Source of the DNA: Gonapodya prolifera JEL478
Taxonomy: Eukaryota; Monoblepharomycota; Monoblepharidomycetes; Monoblepharidales; Gonapodyaceae
NCBI GenBank assembly: GCA_001574975.1
Contig: KQ965757.1
Coordinates: 296,960 to 360,959, forward strand
Length of the DNA: 64,000 nt
Direction: 5' to 3'
This document shows positions 21,142-53,777 of the stretch, one piece after another; the first letter of the stretch is position 1; each line of letters starts with the position of its first letter. A program made the translations under genes and the position numbers. The notes below the pieces were generated by a model, which had not been told where the DNA came from, made no database searches, and was given only the letters and a program-made list of their open reading frames with translations.

Positions 21142-24100
21142 TCATCTCCAGCTGCCCTTACCCATCCCGGCAGCACTCCCCGTACTCCCTCCCCTCGCAT
21201 GCCCCACAACTTTATTCCGCTCCTCCATCGCGCGGGCAAGTTGGGCCTGTATCCCGCCGCCGGCACCTGTCGAAGCCGTCGATCGAGTCGACGCGCTGTC
21301 CCCAGTCGCATTCCGACCTGGTGTCGGAACGCCGGCGCCAGGGTAAACTTGGTACACTGGCTCAGTCACCGGCGCTGCCTGGTTGTAATAAGCGTACCCT
21401 GCGTCGACTCCTGTCGTCGTGGACACCATTCCCAACGACCGGCCCGACTTCCCAGACCGAGCGCTGGACCTCGGCGGGTCAGCTCTCGCGGCGGCGGCGG
21501 CGGCGGAGGCCTGCTGCTGTTGCACGAGGTATGCCGCGCCGGGGTTCATCGGTTGCACGTACTGCACTGGAGGGTACCCTGGTGCAGTCGCCACGACGGC
21601 GGGGGCCGCACCGTACAAGTGCGCCAGAGCAGGGTGGGCGTTGACAGCGGCCGCTTGGGGGTACACCATATGCGCTGGAACAACCGGAGTGCCCCCGCCG
21701 CTTCCTTCGATGTCCGAGCCCGCCAGAGATCCTCGAGAACGATGCGAGGGGGTCTTTCCGGCGCCCATCTGCACAAGCGGCACGCCACTGGGGCTGCCGA
21801 CAAGCGACGCTGTGGAAGTGTCGTCTTCGGACATTCCGCCCCGCATAGGTGTCGCGTGGGGCGAGCCGTCCCGTCCAGGGCTCGTCGGAGCGGCGCCATA
21901 CCCGCCAGCCCCGCGTGGTGGCGACCCAGGAATAGGCGCTGGTGCGTAGTAGTTGTACAGCGCAGGGTCGGGCTTCGTGATTGTTGGGGAGGGCATTTTG
22001 GCCATCTGCGGCGGGAAGTTAGCGCCCGGTGAGGGGAGCGTTTTGCTGGCGGTGGAGCGGGGCGAGCGAGGGTTATTGTTGTCTTCGTCATCGGAATCCT
22101 CGTCGTCGTCTTCTGACTTGCGCTGGAGGCGAAAGGAAGGGGTGGTGAGAATAATTGGGGCCAGGGGAGAATGGGTAGAGAAGCAGTGTAGACACGTACC
22201 TTGCGCGCCCGTACAAACACCACAGCCGCTGCGACAATCCCCACCGCCACTCCCACACCCACGGCTATCCCGACCACTGCTGGAACCGAAACACCCTGGT
22301 ACACCCAGCCACCACGTTAGTACCATCTCCACACACATCCTCCACATCAACCATCAACTCACCCCACCCCCACCCCCCACATTCGTCTGCGCTGCCGCCG
22401 TAGCCGTGGGCTTCCCCGCGGTCTTCCCACCGCCATTCCCAAGCACGACATCGACCCTCTCAACGCACCGACTTCCCGCGGGCGTGTTCTTCCCCGACAC
22501 GGACGTGTTGACGGCCTGGAGTTCCTTGAAGATGAGGTCGGCGTACGAGGAGGTGGGCAGGTTGGAGCAGGGGATGTTGAGTGTATCCAGGGAGACGTCG
22601 CGCAGGAAGACGGCGCCGAAGGTTGGGGTGGTGCGGACTTTGGGTACGGAGGGAGGGGTGAGCGTGTGGAGAGTGAGGTTGGGGAGGAGGGTGAGTGTTT
22701 GGGGAAACGGGTACTCACGTGCTTGAATGAAGTTGTTGGTGTAGAAAGCAGTCACGTTGACGAAATCGCCCGCCTACACGCACATCATCGTAGCGTCAGT
22801 CCCATCACACCCTTTCCCTACTCGCCCCCCACCCGCAACTCACATTGCCCCCAACCACCCCTTCATACCCCCACCCCAAATTCGGGATCTGCACGCCAAA
22901 CTGCATCTTATCCACCCCTCCCGCCCAACTGCTCCAAGAATTCACGGCCGCGAAGAAATTGTCCGCGCCAGCACCCCCCGCCCAGGAACACGTGGTGTTG
23001 ATGAAGGAGAGGACCATGTAGTCGATGAGGGTCGCGTTGGTGCCGAGAAGGGTGAAGCTGGAGGGGCCGAAGAAGGGCGAGGGGAAGGTGCAGCCGACCG
23101 TTGCTGTGGAGCGTGGTTGGGTGGACTCCGTGGTGAGGCGGGTAAAGTGATGAACGGGCAAAGAAAACGGAACTCACCCGAAATTGACATATACGTCGGC
23201 AACCCGTAATAATCCGCCGGGCTGCTCACGTTCCGCCAGGGGCTCGTATAATTCGCCAGCCCCGTACCTGTGGGCACATCGGGCACGACCTCGCCCGTTG
23301 CGTTGGCGGTCCATACGGTGCCGTTGTAAACGATGGTAGTGCCGTTGAACACGGCCGTGGCGTTCACAGAGGGCGTGGTGGGAGCGAGGGGGTCGATGCC
23401 GTTGAGGAGCGTGCGGAGCGTGGTGATGAAAGTCGTGTATGCCGGAGCAGATTCGGCGGGGCTGGGGCGGTGCGGTGGTGTGATGGTAAGCGTCGCATTC
23501 ACAACGGGAAATCTTGTCTTGACTCGGCCCGAACTCACTTCACGACCTGAATATCCAACCCATTCAGCACCGCATCGTCAAACGGCCGCGGCGCGCCCTG
23601 GATCGTGCGGTCAAAGAACATGGAGTAGATTTGGTACGCTGACCGGTTGCCGTCGCTGGGGGTAAGGAGGTCCGAGGGTTTGGAGGCTGCGGTGTGGAGT
23701 GGTAGGAAGAGATAAGACATGGCAAAAACTAAAGTCTCTATATCGCTCCACGATGTATTCGCCTCCGGCGGACTCCTCGGTCAGACTATCGCGCTTAGGC
23801 CTCGATGTCGCTCCGCGACGTTCCTCGGTCAGCACTTTGTGCTTACGCCTCGGGTTTCGCTCCGCGGAAGAGTCCTCGGTCAGCGCTCTCGCGCTTAGGC
23901 CTCGGCGCAGTCCTCGCTCCGCTCGGCCTGCGACTACTCACCCAACTGCAACACCACCCTCACCCCGACCCTCTGACACGCCTTAATATCCTTTCCAATC
24001 TGCGGGCAATACAACAACGTATACCCATTCGTCTTGCTCTCGTACCCCGTGTAGGCTTGAGCGCCCGAGAAGGAGCAGTGGTTGGAGAAGTCGATCCCGG

Positions 24101-24504
24101 GGGCGTTCTTGGTGGAGAAGTGGGCGAATATGCCCTGGATATAGATTGTGGAGTATTTTTGGAGCTGGCAGACGGCGGCGAGTGTCGCTTCGGATTGGGC
24201 CGTGTCGAGTTGGGCAATGGTGTTTTGGCCCCAGTAGCCGACCATCTGCGTGGGGTAAGGGAGTGTGGGGGATGGGGGAGAGCGGCGTGAGGAAGTGAGA
24301 TGTGAGTGGCGGGTGCGAAAAGAGGGGAGAGAAGCGTGAGCTCACTTGGAAAGGAGTGCCCTTGTTGATCGTGTCTGGCGGTATCCGCGCATGGACAGGG
24401 GCAGCGAGGTAAAAGAGTGCGAGGAGAGAAACAAATAGAAGGGAGCGGGTGTTTTTCTGTGTCGATGTCGTGATGGGATGGGAGAGAGGGGAGAAGTGTC
24501 GCAT
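21142..24504 (-). CDS. GH18-like pseudo-chitinase receptor 1
   Basis: The signal peptide exon 24504-24346 (SLLFVSLLALFYLAAPVHA) is followed by exons 24245-23942 and 23686-23539, an exon ending about 23179, and further exons to a stop at 21142. The ectodomain is a class III-type GH18 barrel: GYWGQN, GIDFSNHCSF, IGKDIKACQRVG, then RPFDDAVLNGLDIQVV. The catalytic motif DGxDxDxE reads NGLDIQVV, so the acid/base Glu is Val and the middle Asp is Gln. Several N-glycosylation sequons follow. One membrane helix (VVGIAVGVGVAVGIVAAAVV) precedes an acidic stretch (EDDDEDSDDED) and a tail of about 330 Pro/Ser/Ala-rich residues ending near GGIQAQLARAMEERNK. Likely a surface chitin-binding protein with a signalling tail, not an enzyme. 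Middle exon borders are approximate. Confidence 0.75.
23740..23935. repeat. Tandem CTCGGTCAG...GCGCTTAGGC repeat in an intron
   Basis: Inside the second intron of receptor gene 1, three imperfect units of roughly 60-70 bases recur, each with CCTCGGTCAG, a GCGC-flanked short palindrome, GCTTAGGCCTCG and CGCTCCGCG. The same unit appears in an intron of the dienelactone hydrolase gene at 45998-46090. Confidence 0.65.
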
Positions 24505-25279
24505 AGGAACCCGCGCAGGGAAGGGATGGAGCGACAGCGGCAGCGCATTGGAGCCGTTCGAGCATTGCAGTGGCGACGCAAAGAGTAGATAAAAGCAGAA
24601 CCGCGTCCGTCGCTTGAGTGTGCCGGATATGGAAGATACGACTCAGACAAAAACGCACCGAGTCACCCCTCCTGCGACGGCTTGCACATCCCATCGCCAC
24701 CGCCACTCCACCCATCGCTCCTGCGCCGTGTCGGCCCACCACTGTCTCCCGCGAGTCGCGCGCTCTCCGCTCCGTGTGCATGCGTGCGCCCGCTTTTCGG
24801 TTTTGCAAGGGGATCGACTCGGCGTGGCGCATCGTCGGATAAACCTCTGCAAGCGTGCGCCCTCGCACCGGTGGGGGGATCAATAATTCAATTCTTTTGT
24901 ACTCTTTCGACTCTCTGTATGCACTGCATTACTTCTCTGTGAGTGCGAAACGTCTGTGTCCGCCGCCCGGAGAAATCTCCGCGATCTCAGGTACGCCGAG
25001 CAGTCAAGCAGAGCAGCACCGGATCCCACTCACGGTTTGGTATACGGGAGGTTGCTAGATAGTCCATTTATGTGCCGTTTGGCTTTATTGGGCACTTGCC
25101 CAGCATCGTTGCAAATCTCTGAATTCAAGAGTCTCTCTCACAAATCCGTGCCCTTTTCTCAATGCTCGCTAATAATGCTGTATGCAAATCGAAACGCATG
25201 TTCTCAAGTTCTCATTAGAATCCAAGTTCGTTCCGAATCATCTCTCTCCCGGTCCAACCACCACGCCCGAGCCCCACCA
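24505..25279. other. Intergenic between receptor genes 1 and 2
   Basis: Upstream of receptor 1 and 3' of receptor 2 on the same strand. Frames here are open because of high GC, but no family resemblance is seen. Presumed promoter of receptor 1. Confidence 0.4.
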
Positions 25280-28200
25280 TCACCTGCCCCCCTGCGCAGC
25301 CCTCCTCCGCTCCTCCATTGCCTTCATCAACGCCGCCTGAACTCCTCCTCCTGCTCCTCCCGCTCCACCGGGACTCGCTGGCGCACCACCCACCATTGCC
25401 GCTGAACTCCCTTGCGACGCACTCGATGCCACCGACGCCAACGTCGTCTGACTCCCAGACACAGGTACAGTTCCTGATACGCGCACAGGAGATGGGGGCG
25501 CCACAGACGACACGTTACCCGCTCCCACACTGGCACCGCTGCCGACTTTCTGGTACACGTATCCCCGTGTCGTCTTCCTGCCCCTTTCTTCATCCCGTTT
25601 CTGCGACTGCACCTGGGTTTGCACCTGGGCCTGCCTCTGGGCCTGCGCTTGCACCTGAGCGACCCCTGCACTCGCCCTTCCAACCAACGGCGCATCCTCC
25701 CCACTCCCCCCACTCGCCGCACTCGACGGCGGGCGACTCGCGAAGCCCAAATCCGCCACGACGACGGGAACGGGCATCGCCAGGACGGGCGGCTCGGCCA
25801 TACGCGTCGTCGACACCATCCCCATAGGCCCGACCGCGTCCGTCGTCAGCGGAATAGAAGGCGACCGCGCGATTGGTCCGCCAAGAACGGGAGAGGACGT
25901 GGACGTGCGTCCCAACGAAGGTGCGCCGGGGGACCCTACACTGCCGGGAGGTGTGGATGCGAGCGGGTACGGCGACTGCCTCGTCATCGTGGAACCGGCT
26001 GTCGGTGTTTTCTTGAGAGGGAGTGTAGGCGTCCCCGCGGGCGAGGGCGGGTTCGTGGAGGGAACCGACGAGGGATCCACCAGAGCGCGCATCTCGGTCA
26101 TGCTGCCGAGGGACCCGGAGGGTTCGGGTCCGCGTTTGGATCGCTTGGATTTGCTTGGCTTTGCCTTGGCAGCCGCGGGAGCAGGTTTGACTTCCCCATT
26201 CGTGGACCCGGCGTCCGAGTCGTCATCTTTTGTTCGTGCCTAGTAGGTAACGCGCGTCAGCATCGGTGTTGCTAAGTCGGTGGGATGAAGATGAAAGCAA
26301 GGGTACTCACGTACACCGACCGGTAGGTCACGAACGCTGCCCCCCCAATCACCAGCACACCCGCAAGGCCTCCGACCGCAATCCCCGCAATAGCACCCGT
26401 GCCTAACCCACCTCCCGAGGTCGCCACCTGAGTCGCAATGGGACTCGCAGGCCCCGCAGGCCGTCCCGTCCCATTGCCCCGTCCCTGCACCACGACACTG
26501 TCCTTCCACACGCACTGCTTCCCCACGGGCGTGTTCGCGCCGTCCGCTGTCGTGTTGAAGGATGTGAGGTCGGTGTAGAGTAGGTCGACGTACCGGGATG
26601 TCACGAGGGTGGACGGGGCAGTGCAGGGGAGGTTGAGTTGGTCGAAGGAGGAGTCGTAGAGGGAGACGGCGGTAAATTTGGAGACGGTGCGCAGGCGGGG
26701 GATGAGAGAGGCGGAGTAGAAGAAGGTGGTGTTGATGAAAGTGTTGGGCTGGGATGGTACGGTAGGAGGTGGGAGAGGCATTGTCAAGGGGGGGCGTCCG
26801 GTGTGGCAATTGTGTAACTAAACGTATCAACTCACATCCGACTCCGTAAATGCCTCATAGCCCCATCCAATATTGGGCAACTGGGCCGCGAACTCGAGCT
26901 TATCCACGCCCGCCACCCAGTTACTCCAACTCTGCAGGTTCTGCCAGAACCCGTCCTGGTTCGCCCACGTGCAGTTGGCGCCGTGACGGTAGGATACGAG
27001 AAGGTAGTCGAATTTGGTGGGGACTGTCGAGAGGAGCGTGCCGTTGGAGGGGCCTAGGATGGGGTCGGGGAGGTCGCACCCGGACAGGGTTGCTGGTGAG
27101 GAGGTGGGTGGGTCGGTGAGCGTTATCGCGACTGCGGCACTAACGATGAGCGTCTGGAAGCTCACCTGACAGCGTGAACGTCGTCGGCAGCCTATAATAA
27201 TCCACCGGGTTGGACACATTGGTCCATGGCGTGGTCTGCGGCGTCCACCCCGTGATGTTTCCCGTTACGACTTGCGCACCTCTTCCCACCGTCACGTTTC
27301 CTGCAGCTGTGCCGTTGGTGCCGTTCGTGCCTGAGGGGTTGGCGATCCAGGCGGTTCCGTTGAATACGGCGGGGATGCCTGTGTTTCACAAAGGTGGGAG
27401 GTGTTGGAACTTTCGGTTCCAGAATTGTAACACACTCGCTCATGGAACTGACCTGATACGTTCGCAGCCGTCCCAGACAGGGGAGGTGGGTCCTGTCGGT
27501 TGAAGAGCGCTCGAAGCGTGTTCACGAACGCGCGGTATCCGTCCTGGGACTCGGTGATACTATTGGTGAACAACGATTATTGCGGGTACGTTGGAAGCTC
27601 TTAGCTTGTTCGGACGACGGTAATAATTGGCCGACATAAACTCACTTCAGCTGCATGTCGAGTCCATCAAACACGGCATCGTCAAAGGGACGCGGGTCTC
27701 CCGGAACGGTGCGGTCGAAGAACATGGAGTATATTTGGTACGCGGACCGGTTCCCGTCGGATTCAGAGAGCAGGGTGACAGTCTTCGGGGCTGCCGGTTG
27801 TGTGTTGCAACTTCGGCGCATTCACAAAGGGGGCATAACACGCTTCACTCACAAAGCGTCAACACAACCCTCCTCCCGACTCTCTGGCACGCTTTAATAT
27901 CCTTTGCGATATCCGAGCACTTGAGGAGCGTGTACCCGTTGGTCTTTGTCTCATACCCGGGGTACGCGAACGCCCCGCCAAATGAGCAGTGGGAGCTGAA
28001 ATCCATCGATGGCGCTCCCTTGGTCGCGAAGTGGTCCAGGAGGTACCCGACGTGGATGGTGGCGTAGGGTGTCAGTTGGCATGTCGAGGCGAGTGTGCCT
28101 TCGACTTTGGATGTGTCCAGCGAGGCCACACGGTTCTGCCCCCAGAAGCCGATGAGCTGGGCGGAAGGGAAGGTAAGATTGCAGGCGAGGGTAAGAAGAG

Positions 28201-28381
28201 GTAGCGTGTTAAGATGGGGCCTGATGGCCCTTGGAAGACAAGGGGATGTTCTTCTAACCTGGTATGGCGACCGGGGGTTTGTGATGTCCGTAGGCAGAAG
28301 GCCCAGCGAGAGCTCTGCTAAGAGAGCTACGCAGAGAACATAGATGGTCCAGGGGCCAAACGACGAACTGTTTCGGGCCAT
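25280..28381 (-). CDS. GH18-like pseudo-chitinase receptor 2
   Basis: Signal peptide exon 28381-28259 (IYVLCVALLAELSLG), then exons 28156-27853 (304 nt, as in receptors 1 and 3) and 27790-27646 (145 nt, as in receptor 3), with later exons to a stop at 25280. GH18 landmarks: IGFWGQN, MDFSSHCSF, AKDIKACQRVG, then RPFDDAVFDGLDMQL. The DGxDxDxE motif reads DGLDMQLN across the intron, so Glu is Asn and the middle Asp is Gln. The C-terminal barrel half has DLPDPILGP, CTWANQDGFWQNLQSW and FAAQLPNIGWGYEAF. Membrane helix GAIAGIAVGGLAGVLVIGGA, then KDDDSD, a Lys-rich patch and a Pro/Ser/Gln-rich tail with PTLPLKK and a close match GMVSTT to receptor 1. It ends near GGVQAALMKAMEERRRA. Probably a chitin-binding surface receptor. 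Not every internal junction was frame-checked. Confidence 0.75.
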
Positions 28382-29500: not shown

Positions 29501-29556
29501 GATGTGCACCGTCAGGGTGACGTTTTAGGGGTTTATTAGTTCCGTACAGTGGCAGC

Positions 29557-30845: not shown

Positions 30846-33441
30846 ATGAAGAGAGCGCGAGCGGGCATCCAGTCCGTTGGTTGGACGGCCATCGTGCTGG
30901 CTGCCTTGTTCCTTTCCACTTTTCCAGGACTTGGCATTGCACAGTACACGGCCACACAGAATCTGGACTATGCAGCGGGGAATCAGATTGGATTCGGCTA
31001 CGTCATACTGAGTATCGATGATTGCGAAAACAGTGAGTGCTTCGTCTCTTCTCGCAATTGCAAACCCTACCTGAATTTTATGCAACTTTTCCGATTTCTG
31101 GTACATAGTATGCACCCTGCTCGGTTCCACCTGCGTTGGCTTCACAGTGGGAACAGACGGAATCTGCTACTGGAAGAACACCCTTGCCAATCAAGTCACC
31201 ACGTCCGGTGTCACCTCGTACTTCAAATCCGGAACCCCACCCGCACCGCCTTTACCAAACTACACGTACACAATGCAGACATCCGTCAATTATCAGGGAA
31301 ATGACATACTCGGTGAGTCCTTCGTCGTGACTGTGTCGTATTTGCCTGGTCGTTTGGGACAGCTCATGTTCACTTGCCTTAATTCCTTGGTCTCAGTGCT
31401 ATCCCCAGCAACGCAAGATCAATGCAGTGCCGTTTGCAGCTACCTTTCAAATTGTGCAGTCAACGCCATGTTCGATGGTGGCTGTAATCTCAAGGTATGT
31501 GAACGTCTTCTGAGTGAACGAATGGCGCAGAGCCCCGTAACTCCCTTTGCAACAACAGTCGGCAGCACAAAACGCCGTAGCGGACGCGACGTGGACTGCG
31601 TACGTTAGGGGACCCGCTGCGGCAGCTCCGCCACCTTCACCTCCACCGCCTTCCCCACCTCCCCCAGTGCCACCCCAACCTCCTCCAGTCCAGCAACCTC
31701 TCCCACCATCTCCACCACCACCTTCTTCCCTTTCCTCCCCTTCCTCACCTTCTTCACCGTCCACCACTCTCACACCTTCCACATCACAATCACCTTCCAC
31801 ACCTCCTTCACCACCCACTCCACTCACTGGCACCGCACCGACACAGCCATCATCCACCCCAATTCCAGTCGCATCGCAGCCGCAGCCCGCGGCAGCGGGA
31901 ACCGCCCCCAATTCTCCTCCTCCTCCTCCCAACATCTTAAGCACCGTCTCGATCGTTTACTTTACCGTGAACGGCACGTCGGTGACGTCAGCGGTGGTCG
32001 TGTCGTCAAGACCTGTGTCCAGCGGACCTCTTGCCACAACACCTGCGGCGGCGGCTAATGCTGGTGCAACGGCGCCGGCGCCGCCGACAGGATATGACGG
32101 TATCGGAACTTCTAGTGCAAATGTCGGCTTAATCGCGGGCGGTACGTTTGTTTCGTATTGCCATTCCGGTGTGGGCAAGTATTGAGATGACACTCGTTCC
32201 CTTTCCATCGACAGTCGTGGGAGGCGTAGGCGGCCTTATCCTCATCGCCGTCATTGCCGTTGGCGTCATTCTGTACAACCAACGGCGGGCGCCGCCACCG
32301 GAACGCATCGGCTCGTCGCTTGAAAGTCACAATGGCGGATCAAGTCGGTTCGTGGGATCCTCACAGGTATCCCCCTTGATGAATGCACCAGACATGGAGC
32401 GTGCGACTGGATCGGGAGGTTCTTCGACACCCGGGAGCGGAAGCAGTGGAGTGATGGCGTCAGGCAGTGGGGGGGCAGCAGTTGGGTCCGGTCTAACCGT
32501 TGCGAGTCGAGGAATTGGTGACAAAGTGAGTGCACGGGCAGTGAGTAGTATTTTTGACCGCATTGTGATCAAATTACGATCATGTCGGGTACGCAATGAA
32601 GCCGCACGTGAGTGTCGCGAGCTCATGCTACCTGTCACTCCTAGGGCTTACTCCAACCCGCGCATATTCAGTGGTTCTTCATCCTCGTCGCCGGACTTGG
32701 CGGCACCTCCCTCGACTCGAACGACGTCAACTTTGACGGGCCGGCCGTCATCGCAATACAGCCGTATCATGCCTCTTCGGACGATGAGCGTGAGTTGAAT
32801 GAATCGTGAGTTCTTTTATGTCGACGCGGCTCACCCACTTCCCTGCTCCTTCCCCTTAAGTGCGCATCCACACTGGCCAATTCGTTCAAATCACCAGAGT
32901 GTTCCGTGACGGATGGAGTGCGGGAAAGGTGACTAATCTTTCGTGATTCGGCAGATGTTATTTCTTAATTACTGTGCCTGACGACAAAACTGAACTTTCA
33001 AGAACCTCGATACGGCAAAACGCGGCATCTTCCCGCTGGACGTATTGAGACTCACCGACCTTGTGACGTCGGAAGTCTCCGCGATGGGCGTGCTCCCACA
33101 GCTCTCCAGTCTCCGAACAGCATCTCGATTAGCGCAAGCGCCGGCGCCGGAGCCGCAAACGTCAACGGGGCTCTTGTATGGGCCTCGGGGGATGCGGAGT
33201 GACAGTGTGGCTGTGAACGTACGTAAACCCAGATGTTTTTGTGACCAGTGAAGATTGGCAAACGACCGCCTCTGTTCGCATTTCTTAGCCTCCATCAGAC
33301 GTGTGCGACCCGTTGTTTGTCACGACAGGCAGCCTTCCGACATTGCCGACATCGTCAACGTTGGGTGTCGGTGGCTCCTCGGTCCTGGATATGCAGAGAG
33401 TGGAGGAGGCGAGGACACCTGGGGGTGAAGAGAATGTCTGA
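30846..33441 (+). CDS. PAN-like / SH3 single-pass receptor A
   Basis: Ten exons close in frame: 30846-31032, 31109-31312, 31397-31494, 31559-32141, 32215-32525, a 6-base exon 32602-32607, 32672-32789, 32861-32928, 33003-33218 and 33289-33441; about 647 residues. Signal peptide (AIVLAALFLSTFPGLGIAQ), a Cys-rich PAN/apple-like ectodomain (CTLLGSTCVGFTVGTDGICY; QCSAVCSYLSNCAV), a Pro/Ser stalk, and a membrane helix (VGGLILIAVIAVGVILY). The cytoplasmic part has a Gly/Ser linker and a split SH3 domain: VIAIQPYHASSDDE, GQFVQITRVFRDGWSAG, RGIFPLDVL. PAN-like folds bind proteins or sugars and SH3 domains bind proline-rich peptides, so this looks like a surface sensor that recruits Pro-rich partners. 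Paralogues follow at 34155 and 39930. The ligand is unknown. Confidence 0.8.
31620..31850 (+). repeat. CCA/TCC-rich low-complexity tract (Pro/Ser stalk)
   Basis: Pyrimidine-rich coding repeat in exon 4 of receptor A, specifying runs of PPSPPPPSPP type followed by Ser/Pro/Thr. The antisense frame gives a meaningless Gly/Glu-rich ORF. Confidence 0.8.
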
Positions 33442-34154
33442 ACAATTGCATTAGAGTTTTCGTTCTTCTTCACGTCTATGTCGTAACCAAAAACCCATGA
33501 ACAATTTAAATATGCTTTATGCTTTTCGAGGGGAAGATGTAATTTGAATAATTAGGAACATGGTAGACTGCGCCTATGGGACACTTTGACACAATCGTGA
33601 ACGTCAGTCCACTAACCCGTGAGCTGACCGAGTTCGCATTGCGAGACCCAAGCAGCCTACGTAACTTGATTCTGTCGTTAAAAGAGATAACCGAAGACAC
33701 AAGATTCGAGAGAATGAAGATCGGAGATCCCTGTGTGATTTTAATATCGACAATACAATCCGACGAAAGGGAATTCCGCACCCAAATACACAGCACTTGC
33801 GATGATTCGAAACAAAGAGCTGTACTTTCAAGAACGTTCTCTTGCTCTCCGTGACACGAAGTGATCCTTTCAAGGAATAGTGGGTTTCAAACTCTGAAGT
33901 TCTCTGAGCATTACGGTAGGCTTTTTGCATGCATCGGAGTCGAACGGGGAAAAGCGATTGAAAGTTTGAGTTTCGTAACGTGAGGATGAGGATATATGGC
34001 CCTTTTCGGTATTATTATATAGTTTTCGAAGGTGATGGGTATATTATTTGTCCCCTTAAGGCTGCACTGCGGTCTGTTGAGTCCGCCGCCCTGAGAGCTG
34101 TTTTCTCTCCGCACATTCAACACTCAAGGGTTGCCCGCGACTCCCACACGCGCG
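33442..34154. other. Intergenic
   Basis: AT-rich; no gene supported. It occupies the place where the 5' half of receptor B (signal peptide and PAN-like exons) would be expected, and none of that is detectable. Confidence 0.4.
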
Positions 34155-36050
34155 AAACTTTTGATGCGCAGTGTGCGAGGCGGCGCCTGCTCTGCCGGCG
34201 GGGCATCAGTTGCGTACGGCGGGGCGTGTACCGCCAGCACACAGTGCACGGGATCGCTGAGTTGTGTTTCTCGTGAGTGGTAAGCCACTTCTACTCGCCA
34301 CCTCTCCCACCCCGCAAACAACGCTTATCCCTCCTCCCCCAACATTCAATACTACCGCCACAAAGCTGCCCATCCATCCAACAACTATGCACCGGATCCG
34401 CAACAACATGCTGCACCATCACATCCGGCGGCGCATCGCAACCAGTTCCGCAACCAACGGCATCAGGTCCTGTCCCGCCTCCTCCTCCAAGCACAATCCA
34501 GATCGTATACGTGACCGTGAACGGCACGTCGGCTACATCAGCATCAGTGGTCATGGTAACAGCTTCAGGACCTGGGACGACGAGCCGCGGCGGTGCAGCG
34601 ATTGCGACAACAACTGGTGGTGCAGGTGCTGAGATGTTGAGTACAGGGACGAACATTGTCGGATCGTCGACAAACGTCGGTTTGATCGCTGGCAATACGT
34701 TTTCGTTTCCTTCGACGCCGTGTCGCACGGCAAGTACGGGTCACCAAGTATTTACATACCATTCACGCTCCCGTTCCCGCCCCCACACACGACGCACTCA
34801 CAGTCGAAGGCGGCATCGGCGGCCGCCTCCTCATCGTCATCCTCGTCGTTCTGTACACTCAGTGGAGTGCCTTTTCGCGTTCGCCCACATCACCCTCCCC
34901 CCTCTCGACCTTCGTCCTTTGCTTAACAGTTACAAGTCCGACTCTGCGCAAAGCCATGCATCAACCTCGATATCCTCGCTGAGATCGCCCCTGCTGGAAC
35001 AAGAGAAGAAACGGTCCACGGGGTTGCGAGCGTCGTCTCTGCCGGCGCCTGGAAGCGGTGGAGTGATGTCGCCTCGCAGTGCGAATGCAACATTTGGATC
35101 GGGTGCAGTGCTTGGGAGTCGCGCGCTCGTCGCGGGACACATGAGTCAAGTAAGTTTGCCTTGGTGGGGAAAATTTTCAACCACGTTGTGATCTAATGAC
35201 AACGATGATAGGCACAAAATCAGGCGCACGTGAGTCTTTCGCGAGAGCATGTTCTCTGACGCTCCTCACTACGACCTATGTATTAACGACGCATTTTCAG
35301 TGGATTTTTGTTCGTTTCGCCGGACTGACCGGTAACTCCCTCGACTCCAATGACGTCCACTTTGCTGGGCCGTCCATCATCGCTATACATCCTTACAACC
35401 CTTCTTCAGAGTATGAGAGTGCGTATCGGGATTCATACAAATTATTTGCATTACATCCCCTAACTTCTTCTCGGGCCCCAGTACCCATCCTCCCAAGCGA
35501 ATTCGTACAAATCACGACAGTGTTCCCTGATGGATGGGGCGCTGGAATGGTGAGAAACTGTCGCGGATCTGGCGTCGGGCACTTTTCGTCGCCCGTGGCC
35601 ATGATCACAATGAATGCGTTTACCTAGAACCTCGATACCGGAGCACACGGCATCTTCCCGTTCGACGTTCTGCGACTCGCTGATCTCATTCCCACAAATA
35701 CGTCAGCCAACTCCTCGGGGCTCATGCCTCCACCCGTCTCAAGTCTCCGCACGGCGTCGCGATATTACGCGCCGGCGCCGGCGAGACTATCCGCGAAAAC
35801 GTCAGCGGTGCTCTCGCATGGTCTCGCGGGCAGCTGAGTGACAGTACGATGGTGAAGGTTCGTAAGAGTTGTTCTTTAGAGTGACCTCAGGTGCGCGATT
35901 GGCAAATAACGCCTCTGACCATAATAGCCACCGTTAGACGCGCGCGGGCCGATGTCCCTCAAGACTACTGGCAGTCTGTCCGCGCCGGCGACATCTTCAA
36001 CGTTCGGTGTTGATGGATCTTCCGCTCTGGAAGTGCGGAAAGTCAAATGA
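34155..36050 (+). pseudogene. PAN-like / SH3 receptor B, 5'-truncated
   Basis: Starts abruptly within a Cys-rich exon (SVAYGGACTASTQCTGSLSC) also present in receptor C. It continues with a stalk (IQIVYVTVNGTSATSASVV), a membrane helix (GRLLIVILVVLYTQW), a Gly/Ser linker, the 6-base exon (35224-35229) and an SH3 region: IIAIHPYNPSSEYE, QFVQITTVFPDGWGAG, GIFPFDVLRL. The signal peptide and PAN-like exons are missing. At the end a TGA at 36048 replaces a conserved Glu codon, while the homologous frame runs on to the usual stop at about 36083. The loss of the 5' end makes it a probable pseudogene unless an unseen upstream exon supplies a leader. Confidence 0.6.
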
Positions 36051-36414: not shown

Positions 36415-38094
36415 TCACCGGCCACGCGACGAACGCAGGTCGCGCATGTCACGCATGCTTGGCCAATCCGTTGTAGGGATGGGCATATACTGCTCTTCCG
36501 CGCCATAGTACTGATTAGGATACGCAGCGATCCTTCCTGAGGCCATGCTATCATACTTGGGGACCGGGGGGCTCGGGATCTTTTCGGGAGCCGACTTTTC
36601 GGCAGGTTTTGGGGCGGCAGGCTGTGGGGATATTTCAAGGAAACGTCATTCCGAGGTGCATATGTTCACAGTCATGTCTTTGGAACTTACGGGAGCGTAC
36701 TCGTACACAGCTCGGAAAATGTTCACGATCAAGCATCCAGCAATGACCACGATGGCGACTGTGTAAATATACGAAACGTAATGGATGGAACGTTGATATT
36801 TCGGAGCTTTTTCCATCAATAATTGCCCGGACTTACAGAAGAGGGTCGCCATGTCCATCTGCGTTCCAATAGGCGGGGTGTTTGGAGCGGCGTTTCGGAT
36901 GTTGGGAAGTGCGAAGAGGAGGGCAGCACCAAGGGCTGGAAAGACAGTTCAACGTGAGAATTCGGAATCCAAGAACGAGGGCCCCGGTCGCATGACAAGA
37001 TCATGTGCAAATGCTCACCAACAAACGGCAACTCAAGTTTCCGTCCCTTATACCGGATATCCGTTGAAACCAGTCCGTACGCCAGAGTAAGACCCCACAT
37101 GATAACTCCCGTGACGAGAGAGAAGAACTTTGTCGTAACACTCCGCCCAACTGTCAAAGTCACTCCATACGCGAACAGGCCCTCTGTCTCGTTCTCGAGT
37201 TGACCAACGTCAGCATTAGCGTAGTAGCTTCCAACAAATCCAAAGAAGTTGAGCCCTAGAGGGATGGTCCTGGCATTGCCACTGTTGATTGGACCGTCGA
37301 CGGCAAAAACAACAAATTGGGCGACGTATGTATCGAAGGGGTAGGATGACGGATCACCATCGCCAGATACGACGACGTCAGTTGATGGAAGGAGGGAAGT
37401 GACGTCAAACTTTTTGACGAGGTCTCCGGCGATAAGCGTTACGTTGCCAAGATTGCCAGAGAACTTTCCGAGGGCATTAATCTGGTACGTCATACATCAA
37501 CATGGCGTCAACGATCGATTTGTGCAAGAACCTGGTCAGTTCGCTTTTCCCTGCACCAAGCCGCTTCTAGGGGCACCTACCGCGAATCGGTACGAAATTT
37601 TCCCGCTCTGGGGGTCGATGTTGCTGAAGCTCGCCGCGATGCCGAGCCCGTCAGCGTATTCGAAAAGCTGGCCCTGGATGAACTGAGTCCCGTTTGCGCT
37701 CTGGCAAGCTCCATTAACATAGCAATCCTGTTGTGGCTTTTTGGGCTCAACGGCTGACAGAAAAAATGAAAAGGTTGTTTGTTACGAAACGCGAAACAAC
37801 CGCCCGACGCCCCAACGTAATTGGCCTTTTCATTACGCACAGAATTTTTGGTACGCCCAGTTGGTGATGCCGACGGCGGCGCCCAAGATGACTCTGCAAT
37901 AGCGCAATCAAAAGCGTGAATGAGAAAAAGGGAATCACAGGGAAAGAGCGAAGAAGTCAGTCTCTGCCAAATCCTCCCATCCTCGCTTCCAGTATGCACA
38001 AATACTCGGTGATCCTGCCACGCGTCTTTTCTAAAGGTACTCACAAAAGCACAAGAGGCATGATCCGTCTCCACACCGGTACTCTGACTGCCAT
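36415..38094 (-). CDS. DUF4436-family membrane protein
   Basis: Seven exons close in frame: 38094-38045, 37893-37841, 37753-37581, 37481-37019, 36935-36837, 36758-36691 and 36621-36415; 370 residues. An N-terminal membrane anchor (RRIMPLVLLVILGAAVGIT) precedes an extracytoplasmic domain (FIQGQLFEYADGLGIAASFS; NIDPQSGKISYRF; GDGDPSSYPFDTY). Membrane helices follow: TKFFSLVTGVIMWGLTLAYG, ALGAALLFALPNIRNAAP with the conserved PPIGTQMDMATLF, and AIVVIAGCLIVNIFRAVYEY. The C-terminal 69 residues are Pro-rich and cytoplasmic. This order is characteristic of the fungal/bacterial DUF4436 family, whose function is unknown. It interrupts the SH3 receptor array on the opposite strand. Confidence 0.85.
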
Positions 38095-38103
38095 CGTTTC
38101 GAT

Positions 38104-39929: not shown

Positions 39930-42469
39930 ATGAAGACAGCGCGCTGTGGCACCCAACCCGCTGGATGGTCTGCCATTGCACTGATTGCCGTCTTCCTGTC
40001 CCCTTTCTTAGGGCTTGCTGCAGCACAGTACACATCTACTCAAAATCTGGACTACGCAAAGGGGCATCAAGTCGGATACAATTTTTTCACACTGAACATC
40101 GGTGAATGCCAAAACAGTGAGTCCTCCGTGTCTCGTCGCGATGTAGAACCCCCACATAAACTTTAACTAGTTTTCGGATTCCTGAAAAGTATGCACCCTT
40201 CTCGGTTCCACTTGCGTCGGCTTCACGCTGGCAACAGATGGAGTTTGCTATTGGAAGAACTCCCTCGCAAACCAAGCCGCCACGAGCGGGGTTACGGCAT
40301 TCTTCAAAAATGGAAACCCCCCCGCGCCATATGTGGTGACCCACTCGTACACCATGCAAGCCTCTGTGAACTTCGGGGGAAATGACATACTCGGTGAGGG
40401 CTCAAACATGTCTCTTATCTCCCTGGTAGCTCAAAACCGACTTTTATTGGTGAATAAGCCCTGAACCCCGCGAGCCAGGATCAATGCAGTGCTATTTGCG
40501 ATTACCTTTCGAACTGCGCAGTTTACGAGATGGTAAACGGTGGCTGTAATCTGAAGGCATGTGAATGTGTTTTGACTGAAAACAAACTTTAGAGCAAAAT
40601 ACTAACTTGAGAACAACAGACGGCAACAGAAAACGCCATATCGGACTCCGCATGGACTGCTTACATTCGCGGATCTGCTCTCGCTACTCCACCTTGTGAG
40701 TCTGTCTCACAAATAAGCGGTTTTCGTGAAATGCAAATTACCGATGTTCTCAAACAGCCACGGCACAACCTCCCCCACCCACTTCCCCGCCCGCCCCACC
40801 ATCCCCATCCTCCACCCCACCGCCTGCCACAGTGTCGACGCGACCGTCTTCCGCATCGGTGGCGTATGGCGGGGCGTGCACTTCCAGCGCACAGTGCACT
40901 GGCTCACTAAGCTGTGCTTCTCGTGAGAGGTTACCCATCTCTCACGACATAATCCACGACAAGCAATCCTTCCGCCCCAAACTTACATATCATCACAAGA
41001 ACTTTGCGGGTGTCCTTCCAATAAGCAGCTGCGCACTGGATCCGCAACAACGTGCTGTGATATTGCAGCCGGTGCCGCATCAATGTCCTCAGGAAACGCC
41101 CCTAATCCTCCGACTTACGTACTAACCACCGTTCAGATCGTTTATGTGACCGTAAATGGCACTCCGGTGACATCAGCTGCGATGGCGCCTCTAGGAACTA
41201 TGACGAGCGGCCCTCCCACTACTTCAACTGGTGCTGCGACAGGGAAGGACAGCCGTGCACCGTCCACAAACATTGGCTTAATCGCGGGTGGTACGTTCGT
41301 TTTGATGTGGTGATGTTTATAACCGCATTCATTCCTTACCTTCGACAGTCGCAGGAGGTGTAGGTGGCCTTGTTTTTATCGTCGTCAATATCGTTGGCGC
41401 CGTTCTGTACTATCAAAGGCGGGCGCCGCCACCGCAACGCCTCCCTTCATCACTTGGCAGTCCTCATTCCGGCCCAAATCATCTTGGATCCACCCACATA
41501 TCTCCCTCACTTGCAACGGGGATGACACAGTCAACTGGATCGAGAGCCTCCAGTGGATGGATGTCAAGCAGTGCAAATGCAACAATTGGGTCTGGTCAAG
41601 TCTTTGGGAGTCGCACTCTTGCCATTGGGGCAAACCTGGATCAAGTAAGTCTCCGGGGTGGGGAGCGGGGGGTCCAAAATGTTTTCTCGTGAGCTAATGA
41701 TGTTGTTTGGTTCATATTCAGGCACATGTAAGTTTCACCAGAGTATGTCATGCACCGCTGCCGCAACATCGTAAATGTACCATTAGTGGTTCTTCGTTCG
41801 TGTCGCTGGGCTCAGCGGCTCGTCCCTTGACTCGAGTGATGCTTACTTTGACGGGCCGTCAACCATCGCCGTACAACCCTACAACCCCTCCTCTGACGAT
41901 GAGAGTGAGCACCCACAAGCTACCACGCATTTTGGTCCGAATCTCCTATTGACGTCGTTGCCTCCAGTATCTATCCACCCTGGTCAATTTGTACAAATCA
42001 CGATAGTGTTCCGTGACGGGTGGTGCACAGGGACCGTGAGAAAGAGCCTGGATCCCGTCTTAGTTGTCGAACAGTCGTTGACCACAAAACATGCTTAGAA
42101 CCTTGATACCTCGGTCATCTCCTCGCTGCCAGTGCACCCACCACTTTCTAGTCTCCGCACGGTGTCTCGGCAGGCAACAGCGGGTAGATCCGGGAAAACG
42201 TCGACACCCTCTCACGGGTCTCGGGCGCAGCAGAGCGACAGCACGATGGTGAAAGTACGTAAAATGGTTTTTGGGTAATTTGCCAACAACGCCCCGTCTA
42301 TGTGTCGTAGCCTCCACTAGACGTCCGTGGCCCATTGTCCGGCAAGTCAGGCAGCCTCGTCTCATCATCCATCATGTCAAGCAACCTTTCCGCGCTGCCA
42401 TCAACGTTGGGTGTTGTTGGCTCATCTGTTCTGGATGTTCAAAGACCCGAAGCGGCGAGGACACCTTGA
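39930..42469 (+). CDS. PAN-like / SH3 single-pass receptor C
   Basis: Paralogue of receptor A. Signal peptide (SAIALIAVFLSPFLGLAAAQ), then PAN-like segments CTLLGSTCVGFTLATDGVCY and QCSAICDYLSNCAV. A Pro-rich stalk leads to a Cys motif SVAYGGACTSSAQCTGSLSC shared with receptor B but absent from A, then IQ-rich IVYVTVNGTPVTSAAM. A membrane helix (about 41350-41410, VAGGVGGLVFIVV-like) and Ser-rich linker precede the 6-base exon 41722-41727 and SH3 strands TIAVQPYNPSSDDE and QFVQITIVFRDGW. After NLDT the sequence jumps to SVISSLPVHPPLSSLRT, so the GIFPxDVL strand of the SH3 is missing. The phase of the exon joining the Cys motif to the stalk was not resolved. Stop at 42467-42469, earlier than in A. 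Confidence 0.6.
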
Positions 42470-46090: not shown

Positions 46091-46096
46091 TTCAGT

Positions 46097-46116
46097 CCCC
46101 CCCCCCCCCCCCCCCC
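46097..46116 (+). repeat. Poly-C tract (20 C)
   Basis: Homopolymer immediately after the dispersed repeat, within the dienelactone hydrolase copy 1 intron and close to its acceptor on the minus strand (poly-G on the transcript). Confidence 0.9.
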
Positions 46117-47212: not shown

Positions 47213-47583
47213 GTGTGTGTGGTGTGCGATGGGATGTTGGCGGCTTGCAATCCAAGGGTGGGGGACTGGCTCGGGTAAATATTCGGCTGACTGCCGTGCC
47301 TGGAATCTTGGCGCGTCTAATCATCGTTGATTCGTAGCGGAAAGAGAAGGATAACACTGGTGGGTTTAAGACGACGGGTGCCAGATGGTCGTGTACCACA
47401 GTGTTGAAACAGAACAACTTTTATGAAACTTCAAAACACACTACAAGGAATATCGCTCGTGATCAAAAACCATCTAAAGCTTCACAGTCGTCCTGTAAAG
47501 GTGGAGAATGACAATGGAGGAGTTAGCAATATTCGCCCTGCATCCAACTCGCGTACGAATGTTTTGTAGCTGCAAGTGACGAC
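47213..47583. other. Intergenic between hydrolase copies
   Basis: Promoter side of copy 1 and 3' side of copy 2. No gene seen. Confidence 0.4.
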
Positions 47584-48849: not shown

Positions 48850-48891
48850 TTTTGGGTGCGCGTGCAGTGCGACTGGATTATCATTTTTGGA

Positions 48892-49498
48892 TTATATTGA
48901 GAGGGTGACGCAACCGCGCGGCCAAAGAGTGACCAAAGGCTCGGAGGTCGACTTGGGTAAGCATCTAAAACCCGAGCCGGGACTTGCGTGTAATTTATTC
49001 CGGAAATGGATATTAGGAAGTGTGCAGTTTCTATCAACTGGAGAGTGGAAGGAAGGGACAGTGTTTGTCTTGGTAATCCCCGCAAGCAGTATAGTCTCCT
49101 CGATATTTAGGGCGGTCAGGTCCGCATACTCTTGCAATTCGCATTCTGTTGTTGGAGTCCTCTGATTGAGTTCCGGGAGGCTGCTGTGTAGTTCAGCCAA
49201 TGCCGGGTCTTGTGATTTGGGTTTCTTGGATTGCCCCAAACAATCGTCACCGATTTCATTGGCATCTTCTTGTGCAGGTCCTTTGCACGATATCTTTGCA
49301 AATATACCACGAATTTCAGCGATATCCATGTCTCCAATCGCTTGGAGGATAATGTTCTGCGGCACTGTTCACGGTTGCGCAGGGCAACGGACGAGTCTTC
49401 GCATTTTTTCCAACACTTTCCCATTGGATGTTGGAGGAGTCATCCAGCAACGCCCGCTCGAAGCGCTGTTTCACTTCCGATGACCCACGAATGTTCAC
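48892..49498 (-). CDS. Hypothetical protein
   Basis: A 157-codon minus ORF (NIILQAIGDMDIAEIRGIFA; ALAELHSSLPELNQRTPTTE; LQEYADLTALNIEETILL) looks coding because of its amphipathic, Leu/Glu-rich composition. An upstream frame (LLDDSSNIQWESVGKNAKTR) may be an earlier exon. No family recognised and no leader or membrane segment. Strand and extent are tentative. Confidence 0.3.
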
Positions 49499-50284
49499 CG
49501 GTCACCGATTGGGTCGAGCGCGGCGTCTTGCTGGCCAATCCTATAACCAACATCCACGTCTCCTCGCAGCCAGGTCGGAGGCTCGGGTACTGTGTGGTGG
49601 AGCCATTATACCAGGAGACCGTCATGGGAATGTGTGGTTGCTAGGTTGTGGGACACGAGCGACAACCTCCGCGTGCTGTGTCCTGGGCACCGTCTCGGAG
49701 AGGAACCGACCTCTCTGGGGCGGCGAAGTCGCTGTATTTTGTAGTATATGCTGTGATCAACGTGTCGAAGTACAATCAAGTGGGGAAATCTGATATGGGG
49801 ATGCCATCGAGCATGTTCGAAATTTCGGAAACGCATTGCAGATTGATTCGAGCCCACCTTCGATACCAGCAGCGTTCCCTTACCACTGCGCGAAAGCATG
49901 ACCTTAATACTAGTGATAAGATAAGATAGGGTGATTCTATCACCGTTCACCTGGTTCACCGAGTTTCCATATTTAAAATATTTTCATCCGAACCCTTTTT
50001 CCCTCATTCGCCTCCTTTGATATATTGTGGGAGTAGACTGCATTACCCACTCACTCTAGTCACCTCCCCAAATCATACTCATTCACGCTGCTCGATCTTC
50101 CGGCCTGTCCCTTTACATCAGTTTCCCTCCACGCTCCACTTGACCGCAATTTTCGGCTCTCACTGCGCTCTCACCACACTCTGGTTGAAAAATGACACTT
50201 TTCTCACAGCCGTCACGTTAAGAAGACAAAGGGAAGTCATTATTTGCAGTTTGGTTCTTAGGTCAGACTTGGCCATTCGAACAC
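49499..50284. other. Intergenic
   Basis: No supported gene; several short overlapping ORFs without family features. Confidence 0.35.
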
Positions 50285-50700
50285 ACACTCCCGAATCAAC
50301 ACTCATGCATCTCCCAGCCAATCTCACTCCCAAGTACAGAGCCAACGCATCCATCCGGGAGGTGCTCCTTGTGGTATTCGGTCTTCGCTCTGACCCGCTG
50401 TTTTCGAAGGTCTTGTTCGCGAATCCGCACGTGCTGGACAATTTCCAAGCCAGCCGGTGCAAGCGATGTGACGTGGTTCGGTACTGCGACACGCAGTGCC
50501 AGAAGGAGGACTGGAACACTTTTGTGGAAAGGAGGATTTACCTGCAGGGAGATCTGTTATTGGGGACTCGTGGAAACCGTACTGCTTTGCTGGAAGACAT
50601 CAATCTCAAGTCATACGGGTGGACTTCTCCTACCTTCAGTTATTGGGTAAGTTGTCTTACTATTATATTGCACGATGTTATATCTTCCTGCTTACCGTGA
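50285..50700 (+). CDS. MYND-type zinc finger protein fragment
   Basis: The frame from an ATG at 50305 reads MHLPANLTPKYRA and ASIREVLLVVFGL, then CKRCDVVRYCDTQCQKEDWN, which is the second half of a MYND finger (CxxC, YC, xxCQ, W). MYND fingers mediate protein contacts and need a closing His and Cys; here the residues after W are NTFVERRIYL, so the His and last Cys are absent. Either a splice restores them or the finger is broken. No SET or other partner domain is visible before 50700. Confidence 0.45.
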
Positions 50701-51050
50701 ATGTTGCGCTTACATTCATTTAGCTTCGAGAATTGAGGTTGATTTTGCCCGACGATTCACGACAGAGTCCCCTCGTTTCGGAATCTGATGACGAACGTTC
50801 CAACGTTTAGAATTGCTAAATTTCAAATTGAAGGTGGTCCTGAATTGAACTTTCCTTTGTTGTTTTGAATTTCGAGGGAGCTCCATCTGCGTAGCAGTGA
50901 AATAAATCTTCAAGTATGCCAAGTTGTGCCACCTTCGCTTTCCTTTGTGTACCTGGTCGCATTTGGAAATTTCCTTTTGTTGTGGAACCCCGCCACAAAA
51001 GGTTCCGTTACCTCGGTCACCTCAACCTCCAAAATTCACATTTGTCTTCG
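50701..51050. other. Upstream region of receptor 3
   Basis: No gene seen; presumed promoter and 5' UTR of the GH18-like receptor 3. Confidence 0.4.
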
Positions 51051-53777
51051 ATGCTGTTACCCACTCGCTTTCCCACCATACCAACTCTCCTCCTTGCGCT
51101 CCTTACTGTCGCGTATGTCTCCTTAGTGGACGCCCGCCTTCCCGCGGTTGCGGGGCTTCGAACGCCGTATCAGGTCTGTGTCACATGGAATCGCCTGGAG
51201 GACAACTCTCTCGATTCTAAAAACATTTCTGCTCTACCGCCGCTCCAATATTTTCCACTTGCCCGTGGCTCTTGTAGATGTTCGGCTTCTGGGGCCAGAA
51301 CCGAATCGGCTACAACATCCCAGGCTACTCGGAGCCCACACTGGCATCCGTTTGCTCGTCCACAAACTACTCCACAATCCACATCGGGTACATCGTGTCC
51401 CACTTTTCGACAGGCGGCGCACCGGGCATGGAGTTCACGAACCACTGCTCGTTCATTTTGAACAACGCGTACCCGGGGTACACGACCGCAACGAGTGGTT
51501 ACTCCTTACTTTACTGTCCTGATATTGGAAAGGACATCAAGACGTGCCAGGGGATGGGGAAGAAGATCATTCTCACCATATGTGAGTCTTCTTCCAAATA
51601 CGAGTCGAAAGACCCGTTTCATGGACTGCAGAGGAGACCCGCCCAGCCGATTGGCTAAATCCCAACATAATGATGACAAATGAGACAAGCTGGATACACA
51701 AGATAACACTCTCGGAGCCAGTCAGGCGACAGAAATGTCGAGTGATCCATTATCGAGGGACCTCCTTAATTCCACTTCCAATATCCGAGACGTCATATCA
51801 ACACTTTTGTAACTTACAGCACCCAAAGTCGAAACCCTCGTGGCGGAAGCTGACGGTGTCAAATCCGCGCAGCAAATCTACAACTTCTTCGTGGCCCCGC
51901 CATCGTCGGGAACTCCCAGACCGTTCGACGACGCCCAAGTGGACGGTATTGATCTATACATTCTGTGAGTCCCTCCCCTCCCCTTCGTCCTTTCTCCGTC
52001 GTGTGTGGCTAAAAACGGGACTCCATTCTCAAATCCTCGAACGACACCCAGAACAAACGAGAACCCCCTCGCATACGTCTCCTTTGTTCGGACGATGCGT
52101 ACGCTTATGGACGGCGGAAGCGTCAACGCTTCTTCAACTGCCACGGCCTCGTCGTCCTCTTCTCCAACTACAAGCGCGACGCAAGCTGCCTCTTCGGGTG
52201 CCTACAAACCACCCACCGCGTTTACTATCTCAGGTACTTTCTCTCCCATATTCCCTGCCACCCGTCTCGAACTTCACCATCACCCTTTCCCAGCCACCGT
52301 CGGCTGCCAATTCCCCTCCGCTTTCATGGGCCCCACCTACGCCAACCGCACACTGACCCTCGTCCCCGAGCTGGTCGACTACCTCGTCGTTGCCTTCCGC
52401 GCCTCCGCTGGGTGCTCCTGGGGATCCACGCGAGACGGGTTCTGGAACGCCACGGATGCCTGGAACAAGTTCGTCACCGGAGTTGGAGCGGGGAATGGAA
52501 CGAACGCGAATACCACGAGTCGGACCATGGAGTGGGCTATGCAGGTGCCAAACTTCGGGTACGGTTATGAAGTGTACGAGGAAGCCATGGTGGGTGGTCA
52601 TTTGATAGTATTACTGGACCACGCCCTCGCTCACCCGAACACTTAAACCACCACAGACGGGCGATTTCATCAACACCACCTCTTTTTACGCCGAGAATGT
52701 CGTCCCCCGCCTGCGCGCCCTGTCGCGCTTCTCCGGAATGTCCCTCTTCGAAGCCTCATTCGACCAAATCAACAAACCATGCACGGGGGACAACACGACA
52801 CGGTACGCCGACGTGCTCCACACCCAACTTCAAACCGCCGACGTGACTGCCGTTGGGGCGGGGACGAGCCCGGACAAGAGGTGTCAATTCAGGACGGACA
52901 ACCCACTCCAGGCTCTTGGCCTCGGGCCATCGACGACCACGACGAGTGGTGGGTCGCAGAGTCAGGGAACGTTTGGACCGGCGGCGACACGGACGGCGAC
53001 GGCGGTGCCGGATGCGACTGCAGTGAGTGGAGGGTTTCAAAATTCCGATTGAGCGTGTTCTGACTAACGCTTAATTAAGGCGGCACCACTGACAACGGGA
53101 GCAATCATCGGTATTGCGGCAGGTGCAGGCGGTGCTCTGGGTCTTGCCGCTTTTGGAGCCGTGTGGTACAGACAGCACAGGGTGAGCTTTGACCGTGCAG
53201 CGCCGCTCACTGGCCTGTTCATGCACCACACGTCGTTTCAAACTTCCAGGGCAAGCAAGATGAAGACGACGACTCCGAAGAAGATTCCGATGACAACCCC
53301 CGTGCTCGCGATCCTCGCTCTCGGCACAACCCTCGCGACCCAGAGTCCCACACTGCCATTTCCGCCACCGACTCCACTACATCCCTTGCCCGGCCACATC
53401 CAGCACAAGCGACATCATACTCCTCGCTGGGCCGGCAAACCATACCGAGACCGGATAGCCCGGCCTCATCCCAGGGGACGCTCAACCTACGCGCGGCGGG
53501 AGCCCACCTTGGCGACAACTCTTCCGCATCTACGGCCAGCACGGGGATCACCAGAGTGCACGCTCCAACCGCCGCCGTGCCCTACGGCGCTGCACCGGGT
53601 GTGATGCAAATGAGGCAGCCGCCAGGACAACCCGCTGTCGGCCCCTCGCGGTCACCCGTGCCACCCCCGCCTGGAATGTACGGGGCAGCAGCACCGGGAA
53701 CTCCGGCGGCACCGACGCAGAGCAGGCAGAATGTGCAGTTGCAGCTTTTGATGGCAATGGAGAGGCGCAGGGGGTAA
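51051..53777 (+). CDS. GH18-like pseudo-chitinase receptor 3
   Basis: Eight exons close perfectly: 51051-51173, 51278-51581, 51820-51964, 52052-52233, 52294-52589, 52657-53022, 53080-53181 and 53250-53777; 681 residues. Signal peptide (TLLLALLTVAYVSLVDA), GH18 landmarks FGFWGQN, GMEFTNHCSF, IGKDIKTCQGMGKKIIL, then RPFDDAQVDGIDLYIL. The catalytic DGxDxDxE reads DGIDLYIL, so Glu is Leu and the middle Asp is Tyr. The C-terminal barrel half has GCSWGSTRDGFWNATDAW and MQVPNFGYGYEVY. A Ser/Thr linker leads to membrane helix GAIIGIAAGAGGALGLAAFG, then DEDDDSEEDSDDNPRARD, a Pro/Ser-rich tail with SRSPVPPPPG, and the end QNVQLQLLMAMERRRG. Intact reference copy of the family: probably a catalytically dead, membrane-anchored chitin-binding receptor. 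Confidence 0.85.

Follow-up and report, generated by a model that had tools for sequence, protein, structure and literature searches.

The stretch of DNA analysed here, referred to as the window, covers 64,000 nucleotides of contig KQ965757.1 (C27 below, positions 296960-360959) in the 47.56 Mb, 207-contig assembly of the fungus Gonapodya prolifera JEL478; positions are given in window numbering unless a contig is named. It contains three related genes, designated A, B and C, the products of which combine an N-terminal signal-like segment, a pseudo-domain of the hevamine-type GH18 chitinases, a predicted membrane helix and a long tail. Three genes had been proposed at this locus in an original prediction made from the sequence, and our spliced models match their coordinates exactly. 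Each gene splices to an open frame with a start, a stop and GT-AG introns, and the positions and phases of the introns are mostly common to all three. The tail of A comprises 328 residues; B and C have the same architecture, with a shorter insertion and a shorter tail in C than in A and B. The ectodomains span about 400-450 residues, and the part of each protein ahead of the membrane helix carries 8 to 15 N-glycosylation sequons. Intron 2 of gene A (23687-23941, minus strand, 255 bases) seems by eye to contain a repeat with a unit length of about 60 bases.

Table 1. Features of the window (positions in window numbering).
Feature	Position	Strand	Basis or remark
Gene A	21142..24504	-	9 exons, 853 residues; spliced model, hydropathy, PDB sequence profile
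Gene A, former active-site motif NGLDIQVV (canonical DGxDxDxE)	23541..23564	-	alignment to hevamine/CTS1
Gene A, exon with most of the membrane helix	22200..22295	-	hydropathy maximum 2.8, residues 493-527
Gene A, C-terminal tail motif IQAQLARAMEERN	21214..21252	-	
Gene B	25280..28381	-	8 exons, 848 residues; architecture as gene A; spliced model
Gene B, former active-site motif DGLDMQL(N)	27646..27668	-	last codon split by a phase-2 intron
Gene B, membrane helix	26323..26409	-	residues 497-525, hydropathy
Gene B, C-terminal tail motif VQAALMKAMEERR	25304..25342	-	
Gene C	51051..53777	+	8 exons, 681 residues; architecture as gene A; spliced model
Gene C, former active-site motif DGIDLYI(L)	51942..51964	+	last codon split by a phase-2 intron
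Gene C, membrane helix	53095..53163	+	residues 478-500, hydropathy maximum 1.79
Gene C, C-terminal tail motif VQLQLLMAMERRR	53733..53771	+	
Chitin synthase and myosin motor exons	7562..13637	-	PF03142 E 4e-90, PF00063 E 2e-81; not spliced into one model
Decayed duplicate of gene C 3' part	55061..56292	+	stops, frame changes; tblastn pieces 38-56%, blastn pieces 70-80% identical

How many genes of this kind does the genome encode? The original prediction counted three; protein searches of the whole genome return seven. A second set resides on contig C21, where A2 and B2 occupy 331.3-338.3 kb and C2 occupies 409.4-412.1 kb; the seventh member, gene D, is on contig C4. Spliced, A2, B2 and C2 each give a frame that stays open as far as the stop codon, and their intron phases match those of A, B and C. 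Gene D is open through ectodomain, membrane helix and a long tail exon; its tail was read as one open exon, the introns printed there by the aligner being judged spurious. The start codons of A2 and D were left unfixed in the models. In an unrooted tree, A plus C stand apart from B plus D with a support of 0.975. With the catalytic segment of CTS1 as query, the genome yields seven matches (E 2.6e-7 to 0.055), which are exactly the seven family genes, and this query found no catalytic hevamine-type chitinase; the search scores the best candidates only, and a true enzyme should rank above the seven. A weak match on the contig designated C2 (positions 522918-523094, E 0.26, 31%) was not counted as a family member.

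Pfam does not call GH18 (PF00704) at E<=1 in full-length A, B or C, nor in their N-terminal halves. We built an ectodomain profile from the seven family sequences and ran it against the sequences of the PDB. It matches CTS1 (2uy2) with an E of 6.2e-18 in the N-terminal half, hevamine with 4.4e-16 to 6e-16 and A. fumigatus ChiA1 (AfChiA1) with 6.9e-14, together with XAIP isoform III (4.6e-14), XIP-I (6.3e-7) and concanavalin B (2.3e-5). The profile supports the class III-type GH18 domain that had been proposed; the best matches are hevamine-type, and the ectodomain is hence not that of a class V GH18 protein. The chitinase-like lectin of PDB entry 4b15, which we take to be TCLL, is a weak match on the whole sequence (E 1.8e-5), none of its individual stretches being counted. 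When the C-terminal half was searched alone, with four sequences, hevamine ranked at the top at E 4e-4 over about 70 of 187 positions. Eight cysteines are kept in all seven proteins, and six of these align with the hevamine cysteines of the three disulfides. The WGQN start and the RPfdDAvldG stretch ahead of the active site are likewise common to the family and to hevamine-type chitinases, and an Asn/Thr-rich insertion lies C-terminal to the former active site in the family proteins.

The DxDxE motif with its catalytic glutamate is absent from all seven proteins. The site reads NGLDIQVV in A, DGLDMQLN in B and DGIDLYIL in C, as first noted. Listed in the order A, A2, B, B2, C, C2, D, which is used throughout, the residues equivalent to Asp125 of hevamine are Q/Q/Q/Q/Y/Y/E, so that the predicted replacement of the middle Asp by Gln, Gln and Tyr agrees with the alignment to hevamine and CTS1. 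The residues equivalent to Glu127 are V/V/N/N/L/L/T. Of the proposed change of this acid/base Glu to Val, Asn and Leu, the loss itself holds, and the identity of the residue in A depends on the alignment: Val by ungapped reading, Asn if the motif is anchored on the splice junction.

The replacements extend beyond the catalytic motif. Hevamine binds allosamidin through Gln9, Asn34, Asn45, Gly81, Ile82, Asp125, Glu127, Tyr183, Ala224 and Trp255, as listed in the accessible part of PMC12329526. Eight of these ten positions could be placed in the family, Ile82 falling in a gap and Ala224 not being placeable. The equivalents of Asp125, Glu127, Tyr183, Trp255, Asn34, Asn45 and Gly81 are replaced in all seven proteins, and Gln9 alone of the eight is kept. 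Tyr183, whose role in the hevamine-type site is described in an excerpt of PMC3662789, corresponds to I/I/R/R/R/R/L (placed via a 20-bit alignment), and Trp255 to R/R/Y/Y/F/F/Q (placed by eye, the CTS1 piece scoring 1.8 bits). Trp255 and Gly81, which adjoins a gap, are the less sure placements; the remaining groove positions lie in scored hevamine pieces, and Gln9 in the CTS1 piece. Trp7 is also kept in all seven, and near the old groove the family has invariants of its own, namely a Lys at the Gly81 position and the motif PNxG[WY]GYE (7/7 each). Because the cysteines are kept while the groove residues are replaced, the barrel fold seems to have been retained and the groove rebuilt. Judged by these residues, the groove would have been dismantled, beyond mere catalytic disarming, which weakens the idea of a receptor that reads chitin.

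Could the glutamate be restored by splicing? The Glu position sits on a phase-2 splice junction in the family genes, and a splice form that restores it had been put forward as one observation that would overturn the original prediction. We enumerated splice forms with one intron of 40-500 bases and with donors and acceptors near the site, giving 615 open combinations over the seven genes. Within these limits no combination restores the Glu in A (0/80), B (0/130) or C (0/55), nor in B2 (0/99), C2 (0/54) or D (0/72). Two of the 125 combinations of A2 bring a Glu to the site or close to it, and in these the peptide past the junction is in a different frame than in the gene model. As a control, ordinary GH18 genes of this genome were drawn from at least 14 gene places; the Glu is present in all six whose site could be read, in our judgement, within a single exon, and the other eight did not resolve. 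Several ordinary GH18 genes seem at first to have lost the Glu (DGVDLDVS and the like); these cases were set aside, since they look like read-through into the splice donor.

Signal peptides and membrane helices were assigned by hydropathy only, in six models, D being left out. All six have an N-terminal hydrophobic stretch and one at the expected place of the membrane helix (maxima 1.79-2.8), in line with the signal peptide and the membrane helix first proposed. The tails comprise 179 to 328 residues and are of low complexity, with Pro, Ser, Thr, Gly and Ala abundant; Pfam finds no domain, kinase included, in the tails of A, B and C. The description of this segment as a conserved cytoplasmic tail needs qualification. 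It applies within the gene pairs and to a C-terminal 13-mer, [IV]QxxLxxAME+R, which occurs in all four paralogue groups and whose score was reached by one of 500 shuffles; it does not apply broadly across the paralogues.

Pairwise ratios of nonsynonymous to synonymous substitution rates (dN/dS, Nei-Gojobori) were calculated for A-A2, B-B2 and C-C2, D having no partner. The overall values are 0.080, 0.100 and 0.115, respectively; those of the ectodomain are 0.071, 0.068 and 0.100, and those of the tail 0.064, 0.108 and 0.111. Constraint is weaker over the first 40 residues (0.15-0.43), which fits a signal peptide, and whole-gene dS lies between 0.36 and 0.49. Ectodomain and tail are under purifying selection in the three pairs, so the inactive head is not decaying in them, and the tail is not either. 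From start to start, A and C are about 27 kb apart on C27 versus 75 kb on C21. The duplicated segment shared by these contigs may descend from an old segmental or whole-genome duplication, or from hybrid subgenomes.

With somewhat better than even confidence, we propose that the family consists of type I surface pseudoenzymes that bind something by a route other than the old chitin groove. A hevamine/CTS1-type GH18 barrel, with its cysteines intact and devoid of the catalytic residues and the chitin-gripping subsites, would form an extracellular binding head, which probably touches a wall component or a partner protein by another surface. One helix would anchor the pseudoenzyme in the membrane. 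The long tail, putatively disordered and with a short, conserved, basic motif of helix-like character at its end, may recruit a cytosolic partner and so serve in signalling or anchoring. The family probably senses or holds something rather than digesting chitin.

The original prediction went further in one respect, describing the proteins as receptors that read chitin rather than cut it. Its non-catalytic ectodomain, its single-pass layout and the gene family are borne out; chitin reading is the part that suffers, since most of the chitin-holding groove is gone and this interpretation thereby loses its main support. That the ectodomain is homologous to chitinases, that Gln9 and Trp7 persist throughout, that a chitin synthase gene adjoins, and that a GH18 lectin devoid of the Glu is described as binding N-acetylglucosamine (GlcNAc) in the accessible text of PMC3662789 all speak for a head that binds chitin or chitin oligomers and a tail that signals. 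Against it stand the seven groove positions replaced in every protein (Trp255 and Gly81 being placed less surely), the Arg or Gln found at the Trp255 place in three of the seven, and the failure of Pfam to find a chitin-binding domain in A, B or C. We regard chitin receptors in this sense as unlikely, although the ectodomain might bind chitin by another of its faces.

The surroundings of the genes could point to a different role, in wall synthesis. The chitin synthase and myosin motor exons of the window, probably one class V/VII-type gene, share their strand with A and B; a chitin synthase with a myosin motor also fits a fungal source of the DNA. A 99% identical copy of the chitin-synthase exon is located on C21, about 20 kb from A2/B2 and on the same strand, and at both loci the interval separating A/B from C contains members of a second gene family. 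The pseudo-chitinases might accordingly partner or steer the adjoining myosin-motor chitin synthase, tethering the membrane to the nascent wall and not signalling. The shared gene order is suggestive; it is no independent proof of a functional link, and the neighbourhood is weak evidence because both loci descend from one duplication. We rate such an accessory role a shade below chitin reception, and doubtful.

Several neighbours deserve description in their own right. The second family has Pro/Ser-rich ectodomains and, by eye, one apparent membrane helix; its members lie at about 31541-35418 and 41336-41650 in the window (plus strand), with copies at 346.9-361.9 kb on C21 and on contig C2. 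They are more diverged than the pseudo-chitinases, and Pfam gave no match for the three pieces tested. An exon that matches DUF4436 (E 2.6e-8) is present between B and C (36819-37496, minus strand). The decayed duplicate of gene C adjoins the intact gene just downstream, and one of its pieces is possibly repeated (55417-55611). An exon downstream of C, presumably an amidase, gave nine matches, none of them a copy on C21.

Might the proteins instead be inhibitors or decoys, membrane-held analogues of the XIP type that block foreign glycosidases by protein-protein contact? XIP-I, XAIP isoform III and concanavalin B are among the profile matches, below CTS1 and hevamine, and the groove residues of OsXIP are mostly replaced likewise, according to an excerpt of PMC12329526. 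The family, however, carries a membrane helix and a long tail, and that tail is constrained, which inhibition alone would not need. We consider this improbable. That the proteins are still enzymes, by alternative splicing or unusual catalysis, is very improbable: the two A2 splice pairs that put a Glu at or near the site both shift the frame after the junction, the six other genes offer none in 490 open combinations, and the equivalents of Asp125 and Tyr183 are gone as well.

Several observations weigh against our proposal of non-catalytic surface pseudoenzymes. The C-terminal half of the ectodomain is matched weakly by sequence, and the last strand, with Trp255, lies outside any significant alignment. 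The tail of B2 has a second hydrophobic stretch (residues 686-705, 1.94, compared with 2.05 for the membrane helix), the only one above the cut among the scanned models, which is harder to square with a single-pass layout. The C-terminal motif has a single shuffle test behind it, run once the motif was known, and the best remaining tail block, a juxtamembrane acidic stretch, is not significant (15 of 300 shuffles reach its score). Selection could act on the stability of the fold alone. Searches outside the genome found no relatives in viral contigs (38 pattern matches, 0 confirmed) or in prokaryote genome contigs (162 pattern matches, 0 confirmed); neither set is a fungal collection, and both negatives therefore say nothing on other chytrids.

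A bolder form of the proposal we hold only tentatively. It posits that the entire hevamine/CTS1-type complement of this fungus was turned into seven non-catalytic, receptor-like transmembrane copies, with no catalytic one detected, and that these, with their genomic linkage to a chitin synthase bearing a myosin motor, act as wall-surface sensors with paralogue-specific ligands. Counts of GH18 genes made by PF00704 would overlook proteins of this kind, since PF00704 misses A, B and C, and the family could be widespread yet unnoticed. Genes A, B and C offer a testable entry to wall or surface sensing in such fungi.

How does the family compare with known systems? Like CTS1, AfChiA1 and hevamine, its members belong to the same domain family, with the WGQN start, the RPfdDAvldG stretch and aligned cysteines, but unlike these chitinases they are devoid of DxDxE, of Tyr183 and apparently of Trp255, and add the Asn/Thr-rich insertion, a membrane helix and a tail. 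Fungal wall sensors of the Wsc/Mid2 type are single-pass proteins with an extracellular head, a membrane helix and a cytoplasmic tail. The present family shares this layout, whereas its head is GH18-derived, and Pfam finds no WSC domain at E<=1 in A, B or C. In chitin-binding chitinase-like lectins the Glu is lost and the sugar groove is often largely kept. TCLL, one such lectin, is not known to be membrane-anchored, and the XIP proteins are soluble. The site Asp, Glu and Tyr are changed to Ala, Val and Phe in TCLL, a GH18 lectin that reportedly binds GlcNAc without the Glu (PMC3662789, in part), and the loss of the catalytic Glu is common to TCLL and all seven family proteins. In OsXIP most of the same groove residues are replaced and the Trp is kept; according to its authors, the substitutions appear to have cost it allosamidin binding (PMC12329526, in part). 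XIP-I, OsXIP and XAIP resemble the family in their hevamine-type fold, largely replaced groove and protein-binding roles. They differ in being plant proteins without a membrane helix or cytoplasmic tail.

The original prediction knew of no described fungal receptor family with this architecture. We likewise found no description of one among the open-licence papers listed, and no such proteins appear in the portion of PMC12115818 available; a precedent in kind does exist in plants. Tobacco has CHRK1, a receptor kinase of the plasma membrane with a GH18-type ectodomain from which the catalytic Glu is missing, according to the accessible part of PMC10573068; an excerpt of another review (PMC5485988) conflicts with this in calling the ectodomain predicted enzymatic. 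A Glu-less GH18-type ectodomain and one membrane helix, the latter by hydropathy, are features that the present family shares with CHRK1. The two differ in that CHRK1 is a plant protein, related to class V and equipped with a kinase domain (PMC10573068, in part), whereas the fungal proteins are hevamine/CTS1-type and the tails of A, B and C have no Pfam domain. If the bolder form of our proposal is correct, the family would be a first fungal counterpart of CHRK1, independently evolved from another chitinase class, and a case in which a fungus built surface receptors from the enzyme family that cuts its own wall polymer.

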